From positions 62,001-126,000 of the IMG/VR virus record IMGVR_UViG_3300049043_000070: a stretch of 64,000 nt of DNA; one strand, written 5' to 3'. Positions 37,828-62,282 of the stretch are shown in pieces; within the stretch, counting starts at the first letter, position 1, and each line of letters begins with the position of its first letter. The position numbers and the translations under genes are program-made. The DNA comes from a virus. Below the pieces are notes generated by a model. It made no database searches. It was not told the DNA's origin and saw only the letters and a program-made list of their open reading frames with translations.

Positions 37828-37835
37828 TATAAATA
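37828..37835 (+). promoter_or_regulatory. Perfect late promoter octamer TATAAATA
   Basis: TATAAATA directly follows the stop of the zinc-ribbon gene and lies 28 bases before the ATG of the coiled-coil protein at 37864. Confidence 0.75.
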
Positions 37836-37863: not shown

Positions 37864-38061
37864 ATGGATACCGCACAACTCAAAAAGAACTTTGAAGAGC
37901 AACTTGCTACTACTGATAAGCAAATTGCTGAACTTGAAGAAAATATCACTAAGGCAAAAGAATACAGATTGAAGCTTCAAGGTGGTCTAGAAACTCTAGG
38001 TCTTTTAGAAGAACCAGAAGCAGAGGCAGAAGCAGCACCAACGGAAGTGGTTGCTGAATGA
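37864..38061 (+). CDS. Small coiled-coil virion-region protein
   Basis: An intact 65-codon frame, MDTAQLKKNFEEQLATTDKQ to EVVAE. Residues 5-45 form a heptad-like Lys/Glu/Leu coiled coil, followed by an acidic Glu/Ala/Pro tail. Small coiled-coil proteins of this kind lie just upstream of gp13 in marine T4-like phages, from memory. It has its own perfect late promoter and is followed by a terminator, so it is a one-gene late transcription unit and could be abundant. Function unknown. Confidence 0.65.
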   Translation: MDTAQLKKNFEEQLATTDKQIAELEENITKAKEYRLKLQGGLETLGLLEEPEAEAEAAPTEVVAE

Positions 38062-38068
38062 TCCCAAG

Positions 38069-38102
38069 TCCCTTCTTACTAAATAGGTAAGAAGGGATTT
38101 TT
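38069..38102 (+). terminator. Rho-independent terminator whose loop carries a late promoter
   Basis: An 11-bp perfect stem (38069-38079 with 38087-38097) closes a 7-base loop TAAATAG and is followed by TTTTT. The last stem base plus the loop spell CTAAATAG (38079-38086), the late promoter variant used elsewhere here, 24 bases before the gp13 ATG. The same bases therefore probably end one transcript and start the next. Confidence 0.8.
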
Positions 38103-38110
38103 CGTGTCTA

Positions 38111-38911
38111 ATGGCATCTCCAAATAGTAGATCCACTCTCATCACATATTGTAAAAGGCAGCTTGGTGAACCTGTCTTACAAATCAATATTGATGACGAG
38201 CAGGTAAATAACGTTATTGACGATACCATACAGTTCTTCCAAGAGAACTGCTATAACGGCATGGAGCGTTGCTATTTAAGACACGAAATAACTGCTGCTG
38301 ATAAGTCAAGATTTGAAAGCGAAGTTACAACAACAAATGGAACCACAAATTGGGAAGAGGCAGCAAATTATATTCCAATTCCAGATCATATTGTAGGTGT
38401 TAGTAAAGTATTTGGAATAGTAGGAAATTCTATTCGTAGTAATCTATTTGGTATTGAATATCAAATTTTCCTCAATGATCTCTATGCTTTTGGATCTCTT
38501 GATATTCTAAACTATTTCATGACAAAGCAATATCTAGAAACTCTAGATATGATCATAAACAATGGATCATTCCAGCAGTTTAGATACACGATGCGTCGTG
38601 ATAGATTATATCTTGATGTTGACAAAGACTTCTTACAAGAAGGTCAGTGGCTATTGATTGAGGCGCATAGACTTCTCAATCCACTAGAAGCAACTGAAAT
38701 GTATAATGATATATTTGTGAAGCGTTATGCCACTGCTCAGATGAAGAGGCAGTGGGGACAAAATCTAATCAAATATAACAATGTCCAACTGCCAGGTGGT
38801 TTAACACTAAATGGCAGACAAATTTATGAAGATGCTATCGCTGAGATTGACAGAATTGAAAGCGAAGTATTGAGTAAGTATGCTATCCCACCACTAGACA
38901 TGATCGGATAA
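38111..38911 (+). CDS. gp13: Neck protein gp13
   Basis: An intact 266-codon frame beginning MASPNSRSTLITYCKRQLGE, then the segment NVIDDTIQFFQENCYNGMER, which is typical of cyanophage gp13. It is followed in order by gp14 and gp15, the T4 arrangement. In T4, gp13 and gp14 form the head-to-tail connecting neck that seals the packaged head. Length is close to T4 gp13 (309 residues) and usual for the marine group. The gene is driven from the octamer in the terminator loop. A one-base gap separates it from gp14. Confidence 0.85.
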   Translation: MASPNSRSTLITYCKRQLGEPVLQINIDDEQVNNVIDDTIQFFQENCYNGMERCYLRHEITAADKSRFESEVTTTNGTTNWEEAANYIPIPDHIVGVSKVFGIVGNSIRSNLFGIEYQIFLNDLYAFGSLDILNYFMTKQYLETLDMIINNGSFQQFRYTMRRDRLYLDVDKDFLQEGQWLLIEAHRLLNPLEATEMYNDIFVKRYATAQMKRQWGQNLIKYNNVQLPGGLTLNGRQIYEDAIAEIDRIESEVLSKYAIPPLDMIG

Positions 38912-38912
38912 A

Positions 38913-39800
38913 ATGCCTACAAGTCCTTATTTTCCTACCTACTACCAAGGTCATCCCGGCGAACAAAATCTCGCACAGGATCTTGCTGACGAACAGATCA
39001 AACTGTTTGGAACAGATATCTATTATCTGCCAAGAACTATTCTGAAAGATAACACACTTGATGATGTTATCTATTCCAAATATCTAGATGAATTTCAAGT
39101 AGAAATGCTACTTCAGAATGTAGAAGGTTTTGGTACAGCACCTTCTGAATTTATCAGTAAGTTTGGTATTCGCATTACTGATGAAGTAACGTTTATTGTT
39201 TCAAGTAGAAGATGGGATCAAGCAGAAGCACAATATGCTCCAACACTTACTGTTCCAGGAAGACCAAATGAGGGTGATTTATTATATTTTCCACTGACAA
39301 AAGATTTGTATGAAATCAAATTTGTAGAAAGAGAAACTCCATTCTATCAGTTTGGTAAAATTCAATTCCTTTTCATAACTGCTGAAATCTATGAAGTTGG
39401 TAATGATCTTATTGATACTGGTGTCGCTGATATTGATGATATTGAAACCCTATTCAGTTCTGCGATATCATTAGTTATGAATACTGGTGGATCTGGAGCA
39501 TTCACTGTTGATGAATTGGTTACGGGAGCAACTAGCAATACTGAGGTTACAGTAAAGTCTTGGAATTCAACATCCAGAATTCTACAAGTTATCAACAGAA
39601 CAGGAACTTTTGTTACCGGAGAAACAATTACTGGCGATGATAGTAATGCTGTGTGGGTTCTTGGGTCCTTTGATACTCTAAATAATACCAACAGCGAATA
39701 TGATCAAAATAGAGAATTTGAAGATGAAGCTGATAATATTATAGATTGGAGTGAAAGAAATCCATTCGGTGAATATGGAAATTATACAGGTAGCATCTGA
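38913..39800 (+). CDS. gp14: Neck protein gp14
   Basis: An intact 295-codon frame, MPTSPYFPTYYQGHPGEQNL onward. The N-terminal QNLAQDLADEQIKLFGTDIY block (DExIKxxGxDxYYLPR) is the conserved head of gp14-type neck proteins. Residues about 195-245 include a GGSGAFTVDELVTGATSN module that resembles the small beta modules of the fibre genes. The C-terminus is acidic with a DWSERNPFGEYG stretch. It pairs with gp13 in the neck. Its stop overlaps the gp15 start by one base. Confidence 0.85.
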   Translation: MPTSPYFPTYYQGHPGEQNLAQDLADEQIKLFGTDIYYLPRTILKDNTLDDVIYSKYLDEFQVEMLLQNVEGFGTAPSEFISKFGIRITDEVTFIVSSRRWDQAEAQYAPTLTVPGRPNEGDLLYFPLTKDLYEIKFVERETPFYQFGKIQFLFITAEIYEVGNDLIDTGVADIDDIETLFSSAISLVMNTGGSGAFTVDELVTGATSNTEVTVKSWNSTSRILQVINRTGTFVTGETITGDDSNAVWVLGSFDTLNNTNSEYDQNREFEDEADNIIDWSERNPFGEYGNYTGSI

Positions 39801-40603
39801 TGTTAGGATCACACTTTTATAACGAAATCACACGCAAGAATATCATTGCGTTTGGAACTCTCTTTAACAATATCACACTGAGAAAGAAAAATCCAGCAAA
39901 TGCTGATGTGTTAGAAGAAGAAAAAGTTCCTTTGGCTTATGGTCCAAAGCAAAAATTTCTTGCTCGCTTAGAACAAAATCCAGAAGTTGGTAGAAAGGTA
40001 GCAATTACTTTGCCACGTTTGTATTTTGAACTGACTGGCATTGACTATGATGCTTCGCGCAAAACGTCTCCAATTCAAAAATATAAAACAGTCATCAATA
40101 ATGATGGCGATGAAGTTAGAGTTCAGTATGTTCCCGTTCCTTATAACATGAACTTTGATCTGGGCATCATCGCAAAGTCTCAGGACGATGCTCTACAAAT
40201 TGTTGAACAGATCATTCCATATTTTCAACCATCATTTTCTGTGACATTGAATATGATCCCAGACATGGATGAGAAGAAAGATATTCCAATTGTATTGAAT
40301 GATATTTCATATGAGGATGAGTGGGAAGATGACTACATGCAGCGTAGGTTCATTGTTTATACTTTAAGATTTACTGCTAAGACATACTACTACGGTCCAT
40401 ACAGCACGTCAGATATTATTAAGAGGGCAATTATTCACGAGACACTTGGCGATGCTGCTGTCAATAGAAGAACTATTACCAGAACATATACTCCGGTTGC
40501 GACATCAGATCTTGATGGTGATAATGATATAGACAATGCTGATACAGCAATCATAACTGCCGACGATGACTTTGGATTTAATGAAGGTATTACGATCTAT
40601 TAA
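39800..40603 (+). CDS. gp15: Tail sheath stabiliser/completion protein gp15
   Basis: An intact 267-codon frame, MLGSHFYNEITRKNIIAFGT onward, with NNITLRKK and VPLAYGPKQKFLARL blocks that mark gp15. T4 gp15 (272 residues) caps the top of the tail and mediates joining to the neck. The C-terminal segment ATSDLDGDNDIDNADTAIIT carries a short Asp-rich dockerin-like or EF-hand-like loop (DLDGDNDIDNAD) that could bind calcium. That part is unusual and is inference. The gene overlaps gp14 by one base and is followed by gp16 after two bases. Confidence 0.85.
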   Translation: MLGSHFYNEITRKNIIAFGTLFNNITLRKKNPANADVLEEEKVPLAYGPKQKFLARLEQNPEVGRKVAITLPRLYFELTGIDYDASRKTSPIQKYKTVINNDGDEVRVQYVPVPYNMNFDLGIIAKSQDDALQIVEQIIPYFQPSFSVTLNMIPDMDEKKDIPIVLNDISYEDEWEDDYMQRRFIVYTLRFTAKTYYYGPYSTSDIIKRAIIHETLGDAAVNRRTITRTYTPVATSDLDGDNDIDNADTAIITADDDFGFNEGITIY

Positions 40604-42864: not shown

Positions 42865-44516
42865 GTGGCGGCCGGTAATGATGTCTATTTGGGCAATCCT
42901 AATTTAAAAAAGCAGGAACCCAAATTTCTTTTCACAAAAAAGCAAATCAACGAATGGATCATGTGTAAAAATGATCCGGTCTATTTTGCTAAGAATTATA
43001 TGAAGATTATTTCTCTTGATGAGGGATTGGTGCCGTTTGAGATGTATGATTTTCAAGAAAAGATTTTACAGGACTTTCATGAAAACAGATTTAACATCGC
43101 AAAACTTCCGAGACAAACTGGAAAATCCACTACGGTTGTTGCTTATTTGCTTTATTACGCAATATTCTTTGATAGCGTTAATATTGGCATTCTGGCTAAC
43201 AAGGCTTCCACATCACGGGAACTCTTAGGCAGACTTCAACTTGCCTATGAAAACCTGCCAAAGTGGATGCAGCATGGGGTTGTTGTTTGGAATAAAGGTA
43301 ATGTTGAACTTGAAAACGGATCAAAGATTTTGGCATCTTCTACATCTGCGTCTGCTGTCCGAGGCATGTCGTTCAATATCTTGTTCCTCGACGAATTCGC
43401 TTTCGTTCCAAACCATGTTGCGGAGCAATTCTTTGCCTCTGTTTATCCTACTATTACTTCTGGTAAGAGCACGAAAGTCATAATCATCTCAACGCCTAAC
43501 GGCATGAACCACTTTTATAAGATGTGGGTTGATGCTAAGAATGGTAAGAATGGTTATGTAATGAATGAAGTTCATTGGTCTCAGGTTCCTGGCAGAGATG
43601 CGAAGTGGAAGGAAGAGACACTTAAGAATACTTCTGCCAGACAGTTCGCACAAGAATTTGAATGTGACTTCCTTGGTTCTGCTGATACTTTAATTAGTCC
43701 AGCAAAACTTCAAAATATACCATTCACTGATCCAATTACATCCAATGCAGGACTTGATATTCACGAAAGAGTACAAAAAGATCACGAATACATTATTACT
43801 GTTGATGTTGCCAGAGGAATTGGTGGCGACTACAGTGCTTTTGTCGTGTTTGATATCACCACACTGCCGTATAAGATCGTGGCAAAGTACAGAAATAATG
43901 AGATTAAACCTGTACTGTTTCCCTCGGTAATTTTACAGGTAGCAAAGGAATATAATTTACCATATATCTTAGTAGAAGTCAATGATATAGGTGATAGTAT
44001 TGCTGCTACACTAAACTATGATTTAGAATATCCAAACGTTCTGATGTGTGCCATGCGTGGTAGAGCAGGTCAAATTGTTGGAACTGGTTTCTCTGGAACT
44101 AAAACTCAACTTGGTGTGAAGATGAGTGTGACAGTTAAGAAATTGGGTTGCGCTAATCTCAAAGCAATTATTGAGGAAGATAAATTGATGTTTGGTGATT
44201 TTAAATTTTACAGGAACTTACCACTTTCATTCAGAAAAAAATGGCATGGGAAGTCGATGAAGGATATCATGATGATCTTGTGATGTGTCTTGTTCTTTTT
44301 GCGTGGTTAGTCATGCAGGAATACTTTAAGGAGATGACAGATCAAGATGTTCGCCGTCGTATTTACGAAGAACAACGAAATCAGATTGAGCAAGATATGG
44401 CACCTTTCGGATTTATTGATGATGGGTTGGGAGATAATACATTCATTGATGCCGATGGAACTTTATGGGAGTATGGAAATACTCAAGAAGAAGTATCATA
44501 CATGTGGAACTACTAA
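42865..44516 (+). CDS. gp17: Large terminase subunit gp17, one frameshift
   Basis: The GTG start gives MAAGNDVYLGNPNLKKQEPK; no in-frame ATG is closer. Motifs run in the standard order: Walker A PRQTGKST (residues about 81-88), Walker B ILFLDEFAF (about 172), coupling motif STPNG (about 210), then the RNase H-like nuclease with VDVARGIGGDYSA (about 313) and VEVNDIG (about 372). The frame breaks near 44213. With one G restored the sequence reads FYRELTTFIQKKMAWEVDEG followed by YHDDLVMCLVLFAW, where the second Asp is the third acidic nuclease residue. Length about 549 residues, as usual. gp17 is the ATP-driven motor that packages DNA through the portal and cuts it. Confidence 0.9.
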
Positions 44517-44716: not shown

Positions 44717-44785
44717 AGAAAACTTTATGGGTATATCCTGACTGGTAGTTCATGTACGGTTTCCCCATTTGAAGTAATCAAATTT

Positions 44786-44793
44786 CTAAATAC
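44786..44793 (+). promoter_or_regulatory. Late promoter octamer CTAAATAC
   Basis: CTAAATAC lies 34 bases before the gp18 ATG, in a 111-base intergenic stretch. A good AAGAGGTAA ribosome-binding site follows, 5 bases before the ATG. Confidence 0.65.
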
Positions 44794-44827
44794 TTTTAGA
44801 TAAATTTGATATCTAAGAGGTAAAAAA

Positions 44828-47012
44828 ATGGCAAGTCAAGTCTCGCCTGGTGTTGTTATTAAAGAGCGTGATTTATCCAATGCTGTTGTCACAGGAGCAC
44901 TCGCAATTCGTGCTGCTTTTGCTTCAACATTCCGCACTGGACCAGTAGGCAAAATTATTAACGTAAATTCAGAAAGAGAATTAATTGATACTTTCGGAAC
45001 ACGAGCTGAGGCAAATGCTTCTGATTGGTTGGTCGCAGCAGAGTTTCTACGTTATGGTGGACAGTTAGCTGTTCTTCGCGCAGAAACCACTGTAAAGAAC
45101 GCAACCAAGAGTGGCACTGGTGTTCTTGTTTCTGACAAGGACGCATTTGATGCTGGTGTTACAACAGAAAAATTCCTTGCTCGCTATGCGGGAACTGAAG
45201 GGAACTATTACCGTGTAGTTATTGTTGATCGTGGTGCTGATTACAAAGTAGCAAAAGTAGGTCACGGTCTTTCTGTTGGTGGTACTTTTACAGACAACTC
45301 TGGCGTTACTCACGAAGTTTATGACGTTGTTGATAACGACAACTTCACTGTTGTAAAAGGAAGCGCAGTACCAACATCAATTCCAACAGGAAAAATTCTA
45401 ACAACCAATTCAGTTAATGGAACTGCTGCTACTGGTTCTGCTTCATACACTAACGTTACTTATACAACTAATAGTTCTGCTGGAACTGGAGCAACCTTTA
45501 ACGTTTCTCGTTCTGCTGGGGCATATACAGTTACAATTTCTGGCGGTGGATCAGGATATATTGCTGGAAATACCTTTACAATTCTTGGAACTGCTTTGGG
45601 TGGAACTTCTCCAACAAACGACTTAACATTCAATGCTGCTACTGTTGTCACGGTAGCATCAACAGTTTCAGCATACACCAATTCTGATTGGAACGCAGAA
45701 CTAATTGGATCAACTGGTTTATCATTCAAGGCAATCAGGTCCTCGCCCTGGTACTTCACCATGGGCATCTGAGCGTTATCTTTCATATGACGAAGTTCAT
45801 GTTGCTGTAATTGATGAGAGAGATAATTCAGTTGTTGAGCGTTTCACATATCTTTCAAAGATCTCTGATGCTAAGTCACCAGAAGGAAATTCAACATACT
45901 GGAAGTCAGCAATCAATGAATTTTCAAATTACATCTATGCTGGCCAAGAATTGACTTCTTCTGAGATCACAACTGCTGGTGAAAATCCAGGTGGAACTGC
46001 TGCTTCATATGCCGCAACTTCTGGTGCTCCAAAAGAACTATCAAGAATTCTTCAGTCTGCTGGCGGAACTTTATCTGGTGGTCTTGATGATTTCGCATAT
46101 TCTTCTGGAGAAATTCAAGCAGCATATGACGAGTTCTTGGATACTGAAGCAACAAGCATTGATTTCATTCTCATGGGCGGATCTATGAGTAATGAAACAG
46201 ATACAATCGCTAAAGCACAGGCAGTTGCTTCTATCGCAAATAGTAGAAAAGATTGTGTTGCCTTCATCTCACCATATGTCGGTAATCAGGTAGCTACCTC
46301 TGGTGGTGCTGCGATTACTCCAGCAACTCAGTTAGCAAATACCATCGCATTCTTTGACAACATTGCTTCAAGCTCGTATGTCGTTCTAGATAGTGGTATC
46401 AAGTATACATACGATCGTTTCAACGATAAGTACCGTTATATCGGATGTAATGGTGATACCGCTGGTGTTTGTGTTTCAACTTCAGCAATTTTAGATGACT
46501 GGTATTCACCTGCTGGTCTAAATCGTGGTGGAATTCAGAATGTTGTAAAACTTGCTTTCAACCCCAACAAGGCACAGAGAGATGATCTTTACAGCAACAG
46601 AATTAATCCGGTAGTTTCTCTTCCTGGTTCTGGTCCTGTTCTCTTTGGTGATAAGACTGCTCTCGCTTCTCCTTCAGCATTTGACAGAATTAACGTTCGT
46701 CGTCTATTCCTGAATGTTGAGAAGAGAGTTAAGGGACTTGCCGAAGGAGTACTCTTTGAGCAAAACGATAGCACAACCCGTAGTAACTTTACTGCTTCAA
46801 TTTCTTCTTACTTGTCAGAAATTCAAGCACGTAGAGGTGTAACTGACTTCCTCGTTGTTTGCGACGAAACAAACAATACTCCAGAAGTCATTGATAGAAA
46901 TGAGTTTGTTGCTGAACTCTACCTCAGGCCAACCCGCTCAATCAATTATGTTACCGTGACAGTAACTGCTACCAGAACGGGCGTTTCCTTCTCGGAAGTA
47001 ATTGGTAGATAA
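44828..47012 (+). CDS. gp18: Tail sheath protein gp18 with an inserted beta module, one frameshift
   Basis: It starts MASQVSPGVVIKERDLSNAV, the canonical sheath N-terminus, and ends TGVSFSEVIGR. The break near 45742 is healed by one base change in frame, joining FKAIR to GPRPGTSPWASERYLSYDEV. About 728 residues. Conserved sheath parts include TFGTRAEANASDWLVAAEFL (N-terminal) and FNPNKAQRDDLYSNRINPVV followed by VRRLFLNVEKRVKGLAEGVL (C-terminal, used in sheath polymerisation). Residues about 195-275 (45415-45650) form an inserted module with GGGSGYIAGN and LGGTSPTNDLTF that closely matches a module in the fibre gene at 17.7-17.9 kb. The sheath contracts to drive the tube into the cell. Confidence 0.9.
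45415..45650 (+). repeat. GSGY beta module inside the tail sheath gene
   Basis: The encoded segment follows the order SSAGTGATFNVSRSAG, VTISGGGSGYIAG, NTFTILGTALGGTSPTND. The same order, with many identical residues, is encoded at about 17725-17930 of the fibre gene. Confidence 0.7.
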
Positions 47013-52945: not shown

Positions 52946-52962
52946 TTCACACATTAACACAG

Positions 52963-52988
52963 GGGACCCCGAAGGGGGTCCCTTTTTT
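52963..52988 (+). terminator. Strong rho-independent terminator after gp23
   Basis: A perfect GC-rich 8-bp stem GGGACCCC (52963-52970) with GGGGTCCC (52975-52982) closes a GAAG tetraloop and is followed by TTTTTT (52983-52988), 17 bases after the capsid gene stop. Confidence 0.9.
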
Positions 52989-52989
52989 A

Positions 52990-52997
52990 TTAAATAG
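52990..52997 (+). promoter_or_regulatory. Late promoter-like octamer TTAAATAG
   Basis: TTAAATAG lies immediately after the T-tract of the gp23 terminator and 20 bases before the next ATG. It restarts late transcription after the stop. Confidence 0.5.
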
Positions 52998-55800: not shown

Positions 55801-56199
55801 TGGAAGAAGAATTTTATGCAACCATTAAATTAGTATCTGGTGAGGAAATTATTTCAAAAGTTTGTTATATGCCAGAAGAGGATAAACTCCTATTGGATAA
55901 ACCTCTATTAGTGGAGACAGCAAAACAAAAGAAAGGACAATTAGAAGTTACTGGATTTATTCTTAAAGAATGGGTATCAGCAACTTTTGATCAAATGTTT
56001 GTGGTTCGTAGAGATCATATTTTAACAATGTCTGAAATTGAAGACTTCAATTTTAGACTTCTACGAAAAGAGCCTAAACAGATTTAACACAGGAAAAAGC
56101 TTTGTTGATGGATCTAATAAACTTCCCAGAAGATCCGGATACCTAGGATCAATAAAAGAAATGAAAAAATCTTTAGAAGATATCTATAAAAAAAGTTAA
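55801..56199 (+). CDS. LSM-like small protein after uvsW, one frameshift
   Basis: It starts MEEEFYATIKLVSGEEIISK. A beta-barrel-like first half (ATIKLVSGEEIISKVCYMP, LLLDKPLLVE) has the strand pattern of Sm/LSM folds. The frame breaks near 56080, after which it reads RFNTGKSFVDGSNKLPRRSG and ends KKSLEDIYKKS at 56197-56199. About 132 residues. A protein of this kind follows uvsW in related phages. Its partner and RNA binding are unproven. Confidence 0.6.
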
Positions 56200-60126: not shown

Positions 60127-62282
60127 ATGACCCGCCAAGAAATCAAGGGCAACCTTGCCCGCCTGCTAGCTACCGAGAACCTCGTTGTAGAGCACCGTAA
60201 TTGCCCTACAGCGTGCTTCAACGTTGAGACCCGTGTGCTTACCCTCCCGAACTGGGATCGTGCTTCTGGCACCGTATACGATATGCTGGTGGGTCATGAG
60301 GTGGGACACGCTCTGTTTACCCCTAACGAAGACTGGACTGCGAAAGTCAGATTGTCCCAAAGACTTCATCAACGTGGTAGAAGATGCCCGTATTGAGAAA
60401 CTGATGAAGCGTAAGTATCCTGGTCTGCGTAAGTCGTTTGCTGGTGGTTATCAAGAACTGAACGCTAAGGATTTCTTTGATATTGCTGGTGACGACCTCT
60501 CTACCTATAGCTTGATTGACCGTATCAACCTTCACTTCAAGGTTGGTGCTAGTGCTTTCATTCCCTTTGCTGATAATGAGCAAGTGTTCGTCACTCGGAC
60601 GGATGAGGCAGAGACCTTTGATGAGGTGCTCCAGATTGCTGTTGATATCTACAACTTCAGCAAGCAAGAGAAAGAGATGGAGCAATTGGATGCTAATGTT
60701 GGACTTGAGCAAACTACTCAAGGTGGGGGTGGTATGACCCAATCTGGGGGTGATAATGAAACTGAAGGTGATGCTGACGAAGACCAACCTTCCAGCAATT
60801 CTGATCAAGAGTGTCAGCAGACTGGTTCTCCTACTCAACCGAAAGGTGAGGATGGTGATAGTGCTGGTGATGAAGGTGATGACGAGAGTTCCCAAACTCA
60901 AGATGCCTTTGATCGTGCTGCTGAACGTCTGACGAATACCTTTGCTGGCAATAACACCATCTATGTTGAGATCCCCGATAACGTAGTCCTAGAGGATTAT
61001 GTTGCTGACTGGACTGAAGTTCATGCTTGGATTGATGAGCAGCGTGAAGCTAATGAACAGATGCTTGCTAACGCTTATCGTGAAGTAGATAATGATTACG
61101 CTTCTTTCCGTAAACAGTCTCAGAAAGAAGTGAACTATCTGGTGAAAGAGTTTGAGTGTCGCAAATCTGCTGATGCTTATGCTCGTGCTGGTCAATCCAA
61201 GACTGGTGTGTTGGATACTTCCAAGCTTCACACTTATCTTTACAACGAAGACATCTTCAAGAAAGTCACAGTCCTTCCTGATGGTAAAAATCATGGTCTT
61301 CTGTTTCTGCTTGATTGGTCTGGCTCTATGCAGCGTGAGATCTTTGCTACTGTCAAACAACTCCTGAACCTTACTGCCTTCTGTAAGAAAGTTCAGATCC
61401 CGTTTGAAGTGTATGCGTTCACGAACGATTACTTCCCTGTTCGTCGTATCAAAGAAGGTAAGTCTCAGTATGTTTCTAACGATGAATACTTTGCTGCCAA
61501 CGGTTGTCATGATGGTAAGATCTACCTTCAGAAAGGTATGTTTCATTTGATGAACTTTATTTCGTCTCGCTCTAACGGTAAAGACTACGAACGTATGTGC
61601 CGTAATCTATATCGTGAGGCATACACTTACACTTACCACACTTACTATGGTGCCACTACTGGTCTGGGTTTGTCTGGCACTCCTTTGAATGAAGGTATCG
61701 TGATGCTCAATTACATCATCCCCCAGTTCAAAAAGAAGAACGATCTTCAGAAAGTGAACGTCTGTATTCTTTCTGACGGCGAAGCTTGCCAAACTGCCTA
61801 TGGTCATAAGATGTATGATGAATACAGGGATCGCAACTATATTCGCCCTCGTCGTTTGGATAGTGGCGCGGTTCTTCGTGACCGTCAGACCTGGCCGTGT
61901 TTACAAATCATTTGAGGGTTGGGATAACAACACCAACACTTTTATTCAACAGGTTCGTGACCGTAACCCTGGCGTGAATGTGCTTGGTTTCCGTATTCTT
62001 TCTGGTTCTCAACTGTCTAACTTTGTCAGTTCCTATGCTGACCTTGCTTATTACGGTGAAGTCCAGAAACAGTGGCGAAAAGACAAGTCCGCTATTCTTC
62101 CTCACCCGAAAGCATTTACTGCTCTGTATGCTATTGCTAACAGCTCTCTTGAAGAGAATGCTACGTTTAGTGTAGAGGATGGTGCTAACAAAGCAGATAT
62201 CACCAAAGCATTCAAAAAGATGCTAAACTCTAAGACCGCCAACAAAAAACTTCTCAATTCTTTCGTGGAGTATGTCGCATGA
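60127..62282 (+). CDS. CobT-like protein: HExxH metallopeptidase-like N-terminus and VWA domain, frameshifted
   Basis: The ATG at 60127 gives MTRQEIKGNLARLLATENLV. The HEVGH motif (about residue 57) with following INVVEDARIEKLMK supplies zinc ligands of a gluzincin-like site. A Ser/Gly/Asp/Glu-rich linker (about 60680-60900) leads to a von Willebrand factor A domain with the MIDAS sequence DWSGSM (about 61311) and LSDGEA (about 61770). Breaks near 60347 and 61895 are joined by frame continuity. About 718 residues. CobT-like proteins pair with MoxR/CobS AAA ATPases. The cobalt-chelatase label commonly given to such phage genes is not supported by any cobalamin gene here. Confidence 0.75.

Follow-up and report, generated by a model that had tools for sequence, protein, structure and literature searches.

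In bacteriophage T4, a late promoter lies within an RNA hairpin upstream of the gene e (lysozyme), soc, 49, I-TevI/II/III, and segB, and the same arrangement is known for the mobE gene of Aeh1 (PMC3014915, PMC2988022). In early transcripts, the hairpin of the gene e type conceals the site of ribosome binding (PMC3014915, PMC2988022). The T4 late promoters span the positions −13 to −6, and the CTAAATA of Aeh1 begins at −12 (PMC1524935), which is also the late promoter sequence of that phage. In the cyanophages, T4-type late promoters read NATAAATA in S-PM2, and homologues of gp55, gp33, and gp45 are present (PMC2984593). No published case of a promoter in the loop of a terminator was found in the open literature; an earlier description may exist elsewhere.

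The gp13 Locus and Its Neighboring Genes

The window (the whole stretch of 64,000 nucleotides analysed) comprised the positions 62001–126000 of a 186-kb virus record (G000). The phage carrying the element at 38069–38102 was found to be a T4-like cyanophage (Kyanoviridae), and its nearest annotated relatives were Kyanoviridae such as S-MbCM7, S-WAM2, and S-RSM4, with a gp13 identity of 81–83%. All the features of the gp13 locus described below were located on the + strand. A small gene at 37864–38061 encoded a protein of 65 amino acids (T4-GC 834/PHROG 580; phrog_580 match 4e-20), whose translation was coiled-coil-like with an acidic tail; the gene is annotated as T4-GC_834 in S-MbCM7 and S-PM2. 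A late octamer TATAAATA (exact match) was present upstream of it at 37828–37835. Five of the seven genomes having the small gene contained such an octamer (37828 here and four of the six others), and no late octamer was found within 75 nt of the gene in Sf-FP1 and S-RIM44. The small gene was followed by gp13 (neck/head-tail adaptor; 38111–38911; PHROG 211; 83% identical to gp13 of S-MbCM7), which forms an operon with gp14 (neck/head closure; 38913–39800; PHROG 460) and gp15 (tail sheath stabiliser; 39800–40603; PHROG 227), and the terminase subunits were found downstream of gp13-gp14-gp15. Because a late octamer precedes the small gene itself, a short single-gene transcript ended by the hairpin is plausible. 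This anatomy fits the view of the first-pass annotation that the small coiled-coil gene would be decoupled from the neck genes gp13-14-15.

The genes encoding gp18, gp17, gp41, MazG, and the PHROG 1462 protein were each split over overlapping frames (window 44828–47012 and 42865–44516; L218:16080–19442), which suggests either indel errors in the metagenomic contig or real frameshifts. The element itself was confirmed by the relatives despite these indel-like split frames.

Sequence and Fold of the Element

The 5′ arm of the hairpin was located at 38066–38079, with a core of TCCCTTCTTAC at 38069–38079, and the 3′ arm at 38087–38100, with a core of GTAAGAAGGGA at 38087–38097; both cores were read directly from the sequence, and the 5′ arm is further supported by the fold and by the covarying homologous stem. 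The late-promoter element CTAAATAG occupied 38079–38086. Its initial C closed the stem, and the remaining nucleotides, TAAATAG (38080–38086), formed the loop. The T-tract TTTTT of the putative terminator was found at 38098–38102, ending 8 bases before the start codon of gp13. The stem contained 11 bp, or 14 pairs with the flanking A/T nucleotides (38066–38079 with 38087–38100, including one G-U), where the extension AAG paired with the first three T nucleotides of the T-tract. The stem, T-tract, and octamer thus share bases, exactly at the coordinates where the first-pass annotation had placed them.

The hairpin folded at −20.8 kcal/mol (z = −6.5), and none of 200 shuffled sequences was equally stable. 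It contained the two features of an intrinsic terminator, namely a stable GC-containing stem-loop and a T-tract immediately 3′ of the stem, together with the octamer of T4-type late promoters ((N)ATAAATA or CTAAATA) before a late gene. When one mismatch was allowed, the count of the octamer in the window was below the chance expectation, so the case rests on its placement and conservation. A generic terminator scan of the window did not list the 38069–38102 site, probably because the first T bases were counted into the stem, and the promoter scanner returned nothing direct for the element. The Rfam search gave no match above the gathering score; the only match, PyrR (25 bits; cut-off 54), was sub-threshold and was rejected as chance.

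Conservation and Covariation at gp13

A set of 180 distinct gp13 upstream regions was compiled, including the added S-PM2-like and Sf-FP1-like relatives, and 171 of them contained a late octamer at the appropriate distance. With a threshold of at least 9 bp and at least 4 G-C pairs around the octamer, the hairpin was found in 122 of these 171 regions and was absent in 49, which shows that the hairpin is dispensable. CTAAATA was present at the gp13 site in nearly all of the first 80 related contigs. The octamer read CTAAATA in the close relatives and GATAAATA or CATAAATA in the S-PM2-like phages, and it was kept even at the loci devoid of the hairpin. Since the promoter core persists where the hairpin was lost, the functions of the promoter and the hairpin are separable. 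The overlap of hairpin and octamer was present in Sedonavirus, Cymopoleiavirus, Gibbetvirus, Nodensvirus, Vellamovirus, and Sf-FP1. The deeper relatives Syn9, Syn19, P-SSM2, S-SM2, ACG-2014f, and T4 contained no such element at gp13, and the gp13 of S-CAM3, S-T4, ACG-2014d, and others was also devoid of it; a plain octamer was found at gp13 in S-SM2 and S-SSM7. The absence at gp13 in many phages indicates that the element marks a subset of the cyanophages.

The stems at gp13 varied in sequence and included CCCTTCTT..AAGAAGGG, CCCGTCTT..AAGACGGG, CCCTATCTG..CAGGTAGGG, GTCCCTGCCTG..CAGGTAGGGAC, CCCTACTTC..GAAGTAGGG, and CCCTACATG..CATGTAGGG. In L033, L071, and L074, CCCTTC/GAAGGG was substituted by CCCGTC/GACGGG, and the loop-closing pair was found to swap between G-C and C-G as the loop swapped between GATAAATA and CTAAATA. 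Covariation was examined in a gap-free alignment of 29 sequences of the S-PM2/Sf-FP1 group, where the pairing was kept in 89.7% of the cells. Double-changed cells numbered 37, against 15.4 in shuffled alignments and at most 8 when slid, and the covariation score was 0.319, against 0.156 when shuffled and at most 0.113 with the partner columns slid. The number of pairs changed on both sides was 6 against 4.1 in shuffled alignments, which is only a modest excess, as 23 of 500 shuffles reached 6. Non-conservation of the overlap had been named beforehand as the outcome that would count against the proposal; the overlap was instead shared by five or more named genera, the stem changing in a compensatory manner and the T-tract following the stem.

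The T-tract was found to accompany the stem. A T-run of at least 5 nucleotides was present at 115 of the 122 hairpin loci, and among all the 171 loci the stem and T-tract occurred together in 115, neither in 42, the T-tract alone in 7, and the stem alone in 7. On the gp13 tree, the stem and T-tract changed together in about 11 independent pairs and in opposite directions in none (median sign-test p ~0.001), where the tree and pair tests rest on one gene and a fixed threshold. At 29 of the 49 hairpin-less loci (including L463 and L452), the upstream frame ran on and its stop codon was the TAA inside the octamer. At most of the hairpin loci, the upstream frame stopped 19–22 bases earlier, just 5′ of the 5′ arm. 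Thus, when the upstream gene extended over the region otherwise taken by the 5′ arm, loss of the T-tract usually went with it, and the promoter core was kept.

Occurrence at Other Positions

In ten cyanophage genomes, the late octamer was found in forward orientation in the loop of 8 of 261 terminator-like hairpins and as its reverse complement in none of the 261. The 8 hairpins were mostly two positions repeated in related genomes and are not 8 independent events. Loop shuffles gave a mean of 0.25 and a maximum of 3, and none of 2000 reached 8. The identical hairpin scan on T4 recovered the gene e and I-TevII, and the octamer was found in the loop of none of the 120 terminator-like hairpins of T4.

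A second element, with CTAAATAC in the loop of a terminator-like hairpin, was located outside the window at 137905–137937 of the genome (137914; L218:17905–17937), between gp41-mazG and the PHROG 1462 gene. Its sequence was AAACCTCCCT[CTAAATACTAGC]AGGGAGGTTTTTTT. It was conserved in relatives with other stem sequences, and equivalents were present in S-MbCM7, S-RSM4, and S-WAM2, lying before other genes in S-MbCM7 and S-RSM4. An unrelated terminator with an octamer was found at 56167 of ACG-2014f, upstream of the gp25-gp6 baseplate genes.

A looser version, a terminator followed at once by the octamer, had been reported after gp23. The strong terminator at 52961–52989 was recovered, but the following TTAAATAG is a near-match and not an exact octamer. 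The gp23 terminator (window 52961–52996) was conserved from T4 to the cyanophages, and the near-octamer TAAATAG after it was present in G000 and, among the relatives, in close ones only (S-MbCM7, S-WAM2, S-RSM4, and S-RIM44).

Two other candidates were rejected. The palindrome upstream of gp18 (44786; window 44750–44828), considered as another copy within the window, contained a conserved octamer, but its hairpin was AT-only, with an unconserved shape and no T-tract. The octamer upstream of gp18 in S-RSM4 and S-WAM2 reads AAATCTAAATAGATTT. The octamer hairpins between gp19 and gp20 (Syn9 113914 and S-MbCM7 109605) contained no T-tract, were unconserved in other genomes, and were considered sporadic. 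These gp20 hairpins of Syn9 and S-MbCM7 were 10–12 bp long, unrelated in sequence, and located before the portal gene.

Proposed Mechanism and Alternative Explanations

The hairpin, the promoter in its loop, the T-tract, and their conservation, covariation, and geometry were established by comparison of sequences, and from these we infer that transcripts would actually end and start at the element and that the phage would make use of it. We consider the element likely to be a Rho-independent terminator with a T4-type (gp55/gp33/gp45-dependent) late promoter in its loop, insulating the adjacent transcription units. A polymerase arriving from upstream would transcribe the entire hairpin, and the RNA would fold over the T-tract, so that the transcript ends at about 38100–38105; the product would be an mRNA of about 260 nt for the GC834 protein, if started at the 37828 octamer. 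A polymerase loaded at the octamer would begin transcription within the 3′ arm, near 38091. The late mRNA would be devoid of the 5′ arm, form no terminator fold, and so escape and read gp13-gp14-gp15, with a leader of about 20 nt (5′-GAAGGGAUUUUU...). The element would insulate two late units at gp13 and, at the second site, separate replication genes from the downstream unit.

The predicted start was assigned from the spacing of T4 and Aeh1, taking the end of the octamer as −6 (PMC1524935), which gives 38091 in the window. The 3′ arm would therefore also encode the first nucleotides of the late mRNA of gp13. At all the 122 hairpin loci the predicted start fell inside the 3′ arm, which is the arrangement of the T4 gene e (late promoter in the hairpin, start in the 3′ arm). 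Because of this position, the late mRNA cannot re-form the hairpin and would neither terminate nor mask itself by it. The predicted late leaders started with GAAGGGA or AGGGA, also at most of the hairpin-less loci, and were almost unstructured, with a median fold of −3.3 kcal/mol against −20.8 kcal/mol for the read-through RNA.

The same geometry, shared with the gene e, I-TevI, and I-TevII (PMC3014915, PMC2988022), would also be expected if the hairpin served to mask a ribosome-binding site, with termination secondary or absent. The 3′ arm of the second site contained AGGGAGG, a good Shine-Dalgarno sequence about 10 nt from the ATG and thus a ribosome site in the stem, so both controls could act there. 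At gp13, however, a site of this kind is weak: the Shine-Dalgarno-like AAGGG is 14 nt from the ATG, and AGGTGC, which sits closer and outside the hairpin, is present in Sf-FP1 and S-RIM44. A T-tract co-evolving with the stem is not required for masking, and the hairpins of the T4 gene e and I-TevII contain no T-tract. Masking as the main function is therefore unlikely.

A variant of the terminator reading is that termination is coupled to re-initiation. The polymerase stopped on the T-tract would overlie the promoter, and the late sigma factor with the clamp-bound co-activator (gp55/gp33/gp45) could reload it in place, so that the boundary would pass polymerases between units under late control and would double as an early/late border elsewhere in the genome. 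We regard such coupling as very unlikely. A slightly less credible explanation is that the main role of the hairpin is to stabilise or define the processed 3′ end of the upstream mRNA and that its overlap with the promoter reflects genome compaction only. Hairpins at the 3′ ends of mRNAs are generally protective, and the separability of the hairpin and promoter would agree with this role, but intrinsic terminators are marked by a T-tract that follows the stem directly, and this tract was lost along with the stem. More improbable still is a DNA operator, where the inverted repeat around the promoter would be bound by a regulator acting on the transcription of gp13. Operators often take the form of a perfect dyad with a promoter at its centre; however, the arms differed between phages and changed in paired fashion, whereas a protein site would conserve sequence and not pairing, and the stem was accompanied by a strand-specific T-tract. 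A chance overlap of an AT-rich octamer and a terminator has almost no credibility, for although CTAAATA-like words are common in a genome of 37% GC, such an origin is refuted by the cross-genus conservation with covariation and by the loop shuffles.

If the reading as a terminator with a loop promoter is true, the element would be a widespread minimal-space device of about 37 bases, ending one transcript and starting the next in abundant marine viruses. It would connect transcription termination with the late promoter in a hairpin of T4, which is a known translational switch. The coordinates given here can be used for 5′- and 3′-end mapping in the cultured phages S-PM2, S-WAM2, and S-RSM4. Such sites would be overlooked or placed in the wrong order by annotation pipelines that assign promoters and terminators to separate intervals.

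Comparison with Known Systems

Ordinary T4-type late promoters share with the cyanophage element the octamer, the spacing to the start, and the position before late structural genes, but they are not located in the loops of terminators, which contain just a few of the ~60–95 octamers per genome. The T4-like Rho-independent terminators, such as that after gene 23, share the GC-containing stem and the T-tract between two transcription units. The gp23 terminators contain mostly short loops, e.g., TTCG or GAAA, whereas the loop of the gp13 element is the promoter element, with 7–12 nt. The T4 gene e group resembles the cyanophage element in carrying a late octamer in a hairpin, where the late transcripts start inside, are devoid of the 5′ arm, and escape a structure that affects the transcripts initiated upstream. 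It differs in that its 3′ arm holds the ribosome-binding site and its control is translational, whereas at gp13 the genes downstream were structural and masking of the best start signals was not clear. The T-tract that co-evolves with the stem further sets the cyanophage element apart from the gene e and I-TevII. The comparison suggests that the cyanophage element would use the topological trick of T4, starting inside a hairpin to escape that hairpin, but with a terminator.
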